A stretch of 64,000 nt of DNA. It comes from Exiguobacterium marinum DSM 16307 (GTDB lineage Bacteria; Bacillota; Bacilli; Exiguobacteriales; Exiguobacteriaceae). The translations under genes and the position numbers were made by a program. The notes under the pieces are model-generated. The model did no database searches, was not told the origin of the DNA, and saw only the letters and a list, made by a program, of their open reading frames with translations. Where the stretch lies: contig NZ_KK211189.1 in NCBI RefSeq assembly GCF_000620845.1, positions 194,501 through 258,500 of the forward strand, read 5' to 3'. Shown here piece after piece: positions 54,367 to 54,879 of this stretch (position 1 is its first letter; the number at the start of each line of letters is the position of its first letter).

Positions 54367-54472
54367 ATAAAATCACCTCACCCCCACTATACCCGCTCAG
54401 CTTACGTTACAGAAGTAGGCACAAAAAGGTGGTATAGTTACTTCAACGATACTATTGGAAAGGAAGAGCGAT

Positions 54473-54799
54473 GTGACCAACATAACAAGCTGCGAAGTCG
54501 ATACGGCACTCGAACTGATCACAGGAAAATGGAAGCATTCCATCCTCCTCGTACTAATCAACGGGGATACGTTACGCTTCAGTGAGTTGAAGCGATCGTT
54601 ACCAAAAATCAGTCAAAAGATATTGACCGCACAACTCCGTGACTTAGAAGAACAGGAGATTGTCATCCGAACCGTCTATCCAGAAGTCCCTCCCCGTGTT
54701 GACTATCGCTTAAGTGAGTATGGGAAAACGCTCATCCCGATTCTCGAAGCGATGAATGAATGGGGAAGACGTCATGCCGAACGAATGCGCTCTAATTAG
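54473..54799 (+). CDS. HxlR-family regulator, CatR-like
   Basis: 108 residues from the GTG at 54473, eight bases after AAAGGA; an upstream TTG frame overlaps that site. Winged helix ALELITGKWKHSILLVLING and FSELKRSLPKISQKILTAQL are typical. A Cys near residue 7 (TSCEVDTA) suits the single redox cysteine of CatR and YodB. Probably represses the divergent catE-like gene. Confidence 0.82.
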   Translation: MTNITSCEVDTALELITGKWKHSILLVLINGDTLRFSELKRSLPKISQKILTAQLRDLEEQEIVIRTVYPEVPPRVDYRLSEYGKTLIPILEAMNEWGRRHAERMRSN

Positions 54800-54879
54800 T
54801 TGTCCACATGTGGATAACCATTTTAACCCATCCCCATCATCACTTATCCACAGGAGGTCGTCATGATTCGTTATCCACA
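54800..54879 (+). promoter_or_regulatory. cluster of four DnaA-box-like sequences
   Basis: TTGTCCACA (54800-54808), TGTGGATAA (54809-54817, inverted), TTATCCACA (54844-54852) and TTATCCACA (54871-54879) occur within 80 bp. Three fit TTATCCACA exactly and the first differs at one base. The first two abut as an inverted pair; the last lies inside the first codons of the next gene. Confidence 0.75.

Follow-up and report, generated by a model that had tools for sequence, protein, structure and literature searches.

An oriC-proximal DnaA-box module of fixed geometry precedes different genes in two groups of Exiguobacterium

In Bacillus subtilis, the deletion of six DnaA-box clusters (DBCs) outside oriC was reported to result in early initiation of replication, which was partly relieved when one cluster was restored (PMC5295017, PMC13220808), and a cluster that had been relocated to the terminus (terC) was described as having a weaker effect (PMC5010248). 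The cluster model itself is disputed. A strong phenotype is said to appear only when all six clusters are removed (PMC5295017), one review states that no B. subtilis clusters with significant roles have been identified (PMC5295017), and around tenfold overproduction of DnaA reportedly did not cause over-initiation in this organism (PMC13220808). A strong DnaA region has been described upstream of yydA (PMC4447404), and a 2026 review lists the existence of regulators of the balance between ATP- and ADP-DnaA in B. subtilis as an open question (PMC13220808). In Escherichia coli MG1655, the DARS1 and DARS2 loci consist of box I, 5 bp, a facing box II, 3 bp and a box III that is oriented as box II, in agreement with the description given in PMC5742627.

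The locus described here lies in a 64-kb stretch of the genome of Exiguobacterium marinum DSM 16307 (the window). Three exact TTATCCACA boxes and one TTGTCCACA are found in the window sequence at 54800-54879 (Table 1). A first-pass annotation of the window had reported three exact boxes and a near match within 80 bp, including an inverted, abutting pair and a box inside a coding start. These positions were confirmed: the pair is formed by boxes 1 and 2, and box 4 is the one within ldcA. The core module comprises 53 bp and consists of the abutting facing pair TTRTCCACA and TGTGGAYAA, 26 bp and TTATCCACA. The ldcA product had a single NCBIfam match, muramoyltetrapeptide carboxypeptidase, which scored below its cut-off.

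Table 1. Features of the DnaA-box module and its surroundings (positions in the window)
Feature	Position	Strand	Remarks
DnaA box 1	54800..54808	+	TTGTCCACA, with one mismatch; forms the left half of the facing pair, no gap to box 2
DnaA box 2	54809..54817	-	TTATCCACA; faces box 1, gap zero
Facing pair, 18 bp	54800..54817	.	TTRTCCACATGTGGAYAA
Spacer, 26 bp	54818..54843	.	Fixed length, sequence largely free
DnaA box 3	54844..54852	+	TTATCCACA; reaches into the ldcA Shine-Dalgarno AGGAGG
DnaA box 4	54871..54879	+	TTATCCACA; within ldcA codons 3-6; absent from the sister-genus module
ldcA, LD-carboxypeptidase (peptidase S66), 335 aa	54863..55870	+	Pfam PF02016 and PF17676 above cut-off; own-genus host gene
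HxlR-family regulator gene (hxlR)	54455..54799	+	Pfam PF01638; stop codon directly before box 1

The clustering of these boxes is far beyond chance. The three exact boxes are the only ones in the window, where 0.38 are expected and where three or more occurred in 1/100 shuffles. Sites with one mismatch numbered 14 versus 13.6 expected and are not enriched overall; it is the clustering, and not the number of one-mismatch sites, that is the striking feature of the window. The frequency given earlier for a random 9-mer, once per 130 kb per strand, needs correction, as the actual values are around 262 kb per strand and 131 kb for both strands together. In the whole 2.81-Mb genome we found 26 exact boxes, versus 4 for the reversed pattern. 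Twelve of these are located at oriC (C2:423192-425272), around dnaA (C2:423680-425071), three at ldcA, three at C2:396920-397032, and the remaining eight are lone sites. With these eight as the background, around 1.6e-7 triplets within 71 bp are expected. The earlier conclusion that the cluster is not oriC, as neither dnaA nor dnaN is present in the window, holds: dnaA lies at a distance of 174 kb, in the region of the true oriC at C2:423-425 kb, and both oriC and a hidden second origin were rejected as identities of the module. At oriC itself, an exact box (C2:425264-425272) spans the region from the dnaN Shine-Dalgarno sequence to the A of the ATG and resembles box 3 at ldcA in this respect; two other genomes, G007 and G011, have a box at dnaA at an offset that matches that of the dnaN box.

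The conservation of the locus was studied in 38 genomes, 19 of the own genus and 19 of a sister genus; these terms stand for the genome-set labels g1 and g2, and public records call both Exiguobacterium. The gene ldcA is present in all own-genus genomes, and the four boxes occur in each of them at offsets 0, 9, 44 and 71. More explicitly, box 1 reads TTGTCCACA in 18 genomes and CTATCCACA in one (L017), box 2 is exact in 18 and reads TTGTCCACA in the other (L016), which yields a perfect palindrome, box 3 is exact in all 19, and box 4 is exact in 14 and has one mismatch in five. A lack of conservation upstream of this gene, which the first-pass annotation had put forward as the observation that would speak against its proposal, was thus not found, and its comparison with the Bacillus clusters outside oriC is supported, with conservation in 19/19 genomes of the genus. 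Invariant columns make up 24/27 positions of boxes 1-3, 5/26 of the spacer and 0/30 of the upstream sequence, and 25/27 and 9/26 of boxes and spacer in the sister genus (n=19 each), with Fisher p-values of 3e-7 and 1e-5, respectively, that are uncorrected for kinship. The identity of the boxes is 96-99%, versus 57% (mean) for the own-genus spacer, the length of which is constant in 19/19, and 67% for that of the sister genus.

Chance can be excluded for boxes 1-3 because their conservation is intergenic. Box 4 is the weakest case, because codons close to a start can stay conserved for other reasons. Nevertheless, its Tyr codon is TAT in all 19 genomes, while a single codon was used in none of the six other invariant Tyr columns, and for Pro and Arg it uses CCA in 16 and CGT in 17 of the 19 genomes, each of which accounts for around one fifth of such codons elsewhere in the gene. 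The codon usage shows box 4 to be under apparent synonymous constraint within the ldcA coding start. In one genome (G005) two overlapping ldcA matches in different frames were recovered (L019/L020, G005:C1:251154-252163), which suggests either a frameshift or an assembly error; boxes 1-3 upstream are intact. As the genomes within a genus are related, 19/19 does not represent 19 independent tests, and the strongest independent argument is the comparison of two host genes.

In the sister genus the module directly precedes a different gene. It is found in front of a gene for an RlmI-like SAM methyltransferase in 19/19 genomes (with one mismatch in G024); the top NCBIfam matches of this gene were 23S rRNA cytosine-C5 methyltransferases, all below their cut-offs, and a match to it is present in 19/19 sister and 0/19 own-genus genomes. 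The TTRTCCACATGTGGAYAA pair occurs in exactly one copy in 18/19 genomes of either genus (reversed pattern: 0), and the two exceptions, G014 and G024, have diverged forms of the pair at the same site. Box 3 was found at +44 in the same orientation relative to the gene at the first 14/14 sister loci and finally at all 19, exact in each, which brings its presence at this offset to 38/38 genomes. A comparison of the two genera yields 96% identity for the boxes and 33% for the spacers. The dinucleotide AC precedes box 3 in 37/38 copies, which may reflect common descent or a preference of DnaA for this flank. Part of the sister genus (L084, L085, L087, L088 and L092-L094) has an extra exact box 45-49 bp ahead of the palindrome; its distance is not constant but differs by a few bases among loci, in contrast to the 26-bp gap.

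The ldcA gene of the sister genus is located elsewhere (1.30-1.37 Mb from dnaA in the genomes measured, n=7), and no exact box was present in the 4-kb surroundings of 11/11 loci read among the 19 genomes. The earlier suggestion that the module serves to connect murein recycling to DnaA is therefore not borne out: the 53-bp module precedes an unrelated gene in all sister genomes, and the sister ldcA lacks boxes at the loci read. For the same reason, an ldcA operator was rejected as the primary role. Considering that the module fronts another gene in the sister genus, the conserved entity is a DnaA module near oriC and not an operator of ldcA. In other words, the two genera have the module at different host genes but share its 53-bp geometry and its chromosome arm, which provides a natural control that separates an element that acts on DnaA from one that regulates its neighbour. 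The case also calls for caution, since clusters are easily judged by their box count or their neighbour, and the neighbouring gene is a poor guide to function.

The complementarity of the boxes allows for another explanation of their conservation, namely an RNA element in which base pairing of box 2 with box 1, 3 or 4 of the ldcA leader masks the ribosome-binding site. The complementarity is real and the pairing of box 2 with box 4 was predicted in 3/5 leaders folded. The folds were discordant though, with box 2 pairing with box 3 in L007 and with box 1 in L016, and the z-scores, obtained for these 5 of 19 leaders, were just -0.97 to -1.67. Moreover, box 2 changes in L016 and in the sister genomes G026 and G034 without a matching change in box 3, and a sister transcript that starts at the usual distance from the -10 sequence would exclude the palindrome. 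We consider such an element very improbable; given the inconsistent folds and the uncompensated changes, the RNA switch was rejected.

The chromosomal position of the module is constant as well. The module is located upstream of dnaA and on the dnaA strand in 16/16 own-genus genomes (167-224 kb) and 16/16 sister genomes (90-107 kb), and is thus oriC-proximal on one arm, 90-224 kb upstream of dnaA, in 32/32 genomes measured; of the 38, five carried module and dnaA on separate contigs and one, G035, was not included. To what extent the layout occurs elsewhere was assessed by scanning 84,980 species for a box at 15-45 bp from the pair, a set from which records close to that of the window may be absent. 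The scan yielded 58 stretches, 23 of which are from Exiguobacterium and all have a gap of 26 bp; 14 of these are at ldcA (including L100, where ldcA is cut off but hxlR and the start of ldcA are present) and 9 at the methyltransferase gene. Among the 35 other stretches, 16 contain dnaA, dnaN or yidC (stretches up to 8 kb). These 16 include two Bacillaceae, Compostibacillus humi and Halobacillus yeomjeoni, in which the pair, 26 bp and a box were found next to dnaN (L105:1982-2034 and L144:12-64), and these copies possibly represent an oriC source or a parallel of the module; in contrast to them, the module of Exiguobacterium has a gene start behind it and is separated from dnaA by 90-224 kb. 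Nine stretches were from Planococcus, with a gap of 27 bp; in the two that were read the layout was inside a coding gene, presumably a luciferase-like one, and these loci were taken as unrelated. Ten stretches were scattered, including one of a Pseudogulbenkiania MAG (L127) that has a gap of 26 bp and none of the queried genes nearby. A link to rlmH was sought for two Paenibacillus matches and not found. In a class-wide sample the pair was present in 85/398 genomes, and 30 loci were returned from it, none of this family, of which 21 have dnaA, dnaN, recF or yidC in their short flanks. The pair thus appears often oriC-linked in other Bacilli, while in the Exiguobacterium family it is maintained well away from oriC.

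This distribution also bears on the proposal that the module merely resembles DnaA boxes and constitutes the operator of the adjacent HxlR regulator or of another transcription factor. The last base of hxlR directly precedes the palindrome in the window and an hxlR match is present at 18/19 own-genus loci. However, L006 (G013) keeps the module intact without an hxlR match, from which it follows that hxlR can go without loss of the module, and no hxlR match was found in the 6-kb stretches around 14 sister modules. In addition, the oriC boxes of this genome have the same 9-mer sequence, and the pair loci of other Bacilli mostly flank genes of the origin region, as specified above. An operator of this kind is, in our view, scarcely probable and was rejected on account of the modules that lack hxlR.

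A stronger alternative is that DnaA bound to the module represses or times the downstream gene (ldcA or the RlmI-like gene) according to the level of DnaA or to replication. In both genera (19/19 genomes each) the module abuts the start codon, always in the same orientation, and an extended -10 sequence (TGnTATAnT) is located between the pair and box 3 in 19/19 sister modules, so that both the -35 region and the start site would fall under bound DnaA. The apparent synonymous constraint on box 4 points in the same direction, and B. subtilis DnaA reportedly controls ywlC, vpr, yyzF-yydABCD, sda and others (PMC4447404, PMC8203912). Against this stands that the host genes differ between the genera and are functionally unrelated, and that TGnTATAnT occurs in 0/19 own-genus spacers. 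A simple promoter scan found no promoter-like site at the ldcA copy, and equally none at the one sister copy tried. The gap between hxlR and ldcA is 63 bp and ldcA is probably co-transcribed with hxlR. We therefore regard a gene switch as the main function as unlikely, while local control of ldcA by DnaA is possible, because the module abuts the start codon throughout the own genus.

The reading that we favour, with somewhat better than even confidence, is that the module is a DnaA-box cluster close to oriC whose target is DnaA and, via DnaA, the initiation of replication. A role in the control of replication is more likely than one in cell-wall recycling. Binding of DnaA to the module is strongly inferred, because the sequence is the box of the same genome's oriC and selection hits the box and not its surroundings. 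Two DnaA molecules would bind the 18-bp palindrome facing each other and a third one at the fixed distance of 26 bp, which would result in a compact nucleoprotein complex; the strictness of the layout is suggestive of a defined assembly of three DnaA molecules that includes one facing pair. At its position 90-224 kb upstream of oriC the module would be copied soon after initiation, and the duplicated module would soak up DnaA and delay re-initiation, as was proposed for the B. subtilis clusters. Such a site near oriC, which is doubled early, can therefore titrate DnaA and postpone re-initiation; for the module itself, both titration and the effect on timing are inferred. An effect on the downstream gene would be likely but secondary. 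As the module is near oriC, occurs in a single copy and is not tied to one gene, a role directed at DnaA fits. The genome also contains yabA. Several features argue against titration as the complete explanation: the placement in the same orientation directly before a start codon in both genera is not needed for titration, the sister module surrounds a conserved extended -10 sequence, the boxes are few compared to the strongest B. subtilis regions, and the exact gap of 26 bp is not obviously required for a pure titrator.

The module is not the only DnaA-box cluster in these genomes. A second one in the genome of the window (C2:396920-397032; L031:2421-2533) is located 27 kb upstream of dnaA, between rlmH (Pfam) and an htrA-like gene, and holds an approximate copy of the facing pair, with TTGTCCACT directly followed by TGTGGATAA. 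In the single sister genome read (G019) a cluster is likewise located beside rlmH. We take yydA of B. subtilis to be rlmH, in which case this cluster is apparently in the same place as the yydA region. At least five own-genus genomes (G004, G005, G006, G007 and G011) have four boxes with an identical spacing (69, 46 and 11); where measured, these boxes lie 47-65 kb upstream of dnaA. No exact boxes are present at this cluster in the genome of the window. In G007, the one genome read in this respect, the copy (L175:2477-2611; G007:C1:2989276-2989410) is found where a histidine-phosphatase-like gene ends, beside a DegV-family gene and 54 kb upstream of dnaA. G019 has a four-box cluster (L176:2452-2572; G019:C1:3082251-3082371) that is located 127 kb upstream of dnaA, where a DEAD-box RNA helicase gene starts. 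Considering that one cluster is shared and that others vary with the lineage, a function in the control of DnaA fits better than one connected to a single gene.

An explanation that goes further is that the module resembles the catalytic DARS or datA loci, in the sense that the facing pair brings two DnaA AAA+ domains head to head and alters the nucleotide state. Boxes 1 (+) and 2 (-) face each other like boxes I and II of E. coli DARS1 and DARS2, where a head-to-head contact of ADP-DnaA is thought to free ADP (PMC8682772, PMC5742627); for this reason, a DARS-like mode of action is still conceivable. The exact spacing and the single pair per genome are suggestive of architecture over box number. 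The spacing, however, is 0 bp and 26 bp versus 5 bp and 3 bp, and a gap of 0 instead of 5 bp would rotate the partners by around half a helical turn. Transcription across datA, DARS1 and DARS2 is reported to impair them (PMC5010248), and the ldcA copy is probably situated within an hxlR-ldcA transcript. Furthermore, B. subtilis is described in PMC13220808 as lacking datA, DARS1 and DARS2. Taken together, this makes a DARS- or datA-like catalytic locus quite improbable, and membership of the DARS family was rejected on basis of the spacing (5 and 3 bp) and the orientation of box III. The related and broader proposal, that the Exiguobacteriaceae module would be a single-copy machine of fixed geometry that changes the activity of DnaA beyond just binding it, and a Gram-positive counterpart of DARS or datA, is in our estimate improbable as well. 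In this view, the layout and the position on the chromosome arm are kept while the host gene differs. If true, it would settle whether bacteria of this kind possess chromosomal loci for balancing ATP- and ADP-DnaA. A compact element in a single copy is suited for testing architecture versus titration in the management of DnaA in Gram-positives.

No literature that joins a DnaA box and an LD-carboxypeptidase was found within the scope of the search, which left most subscription papers outside, and among the matches listed for Exiguobacterium and DnaA, within the same scope, there was no title on DnaA boxes. DnaA-box clusters outside oriC as such are already known, and within this scope it is the fixed geometry that is new. 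Compared to the B. subtilis DBCs (yydA, ywcI/vpr, ywlC, gcp/ydiF and trmE/jag), which likewise have several TTATCCACA-type boxes outside oriC and often just upstream of genes, the host genes in Exiguobacterium differ (ldcA and RlmI-like). The module contains 3-4 boxes, versus 4-12 sites in the eight strongest B. subtilis regions (PMC4447404), and its fixed layout of 18 + 26 + 9 bp at two host genes may set it apart from these clusters. The E. coli datA locus likewise represents DnaA sites outside but near oriC that restrain initiation (PMC5295017, PMC5010248), yet datA works with IHF, which B. subtilis is stated to lack (PMC13220808), and the likeness is one of place and putative role. The core of the E. 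coli DARS loci also has three boxes within a short stretch, with I and II facing, but in Exiguobacterium the gap between the facing boxes is 0, and box 3 follows 26 bp further on in the orientation opposite to that of box 2.
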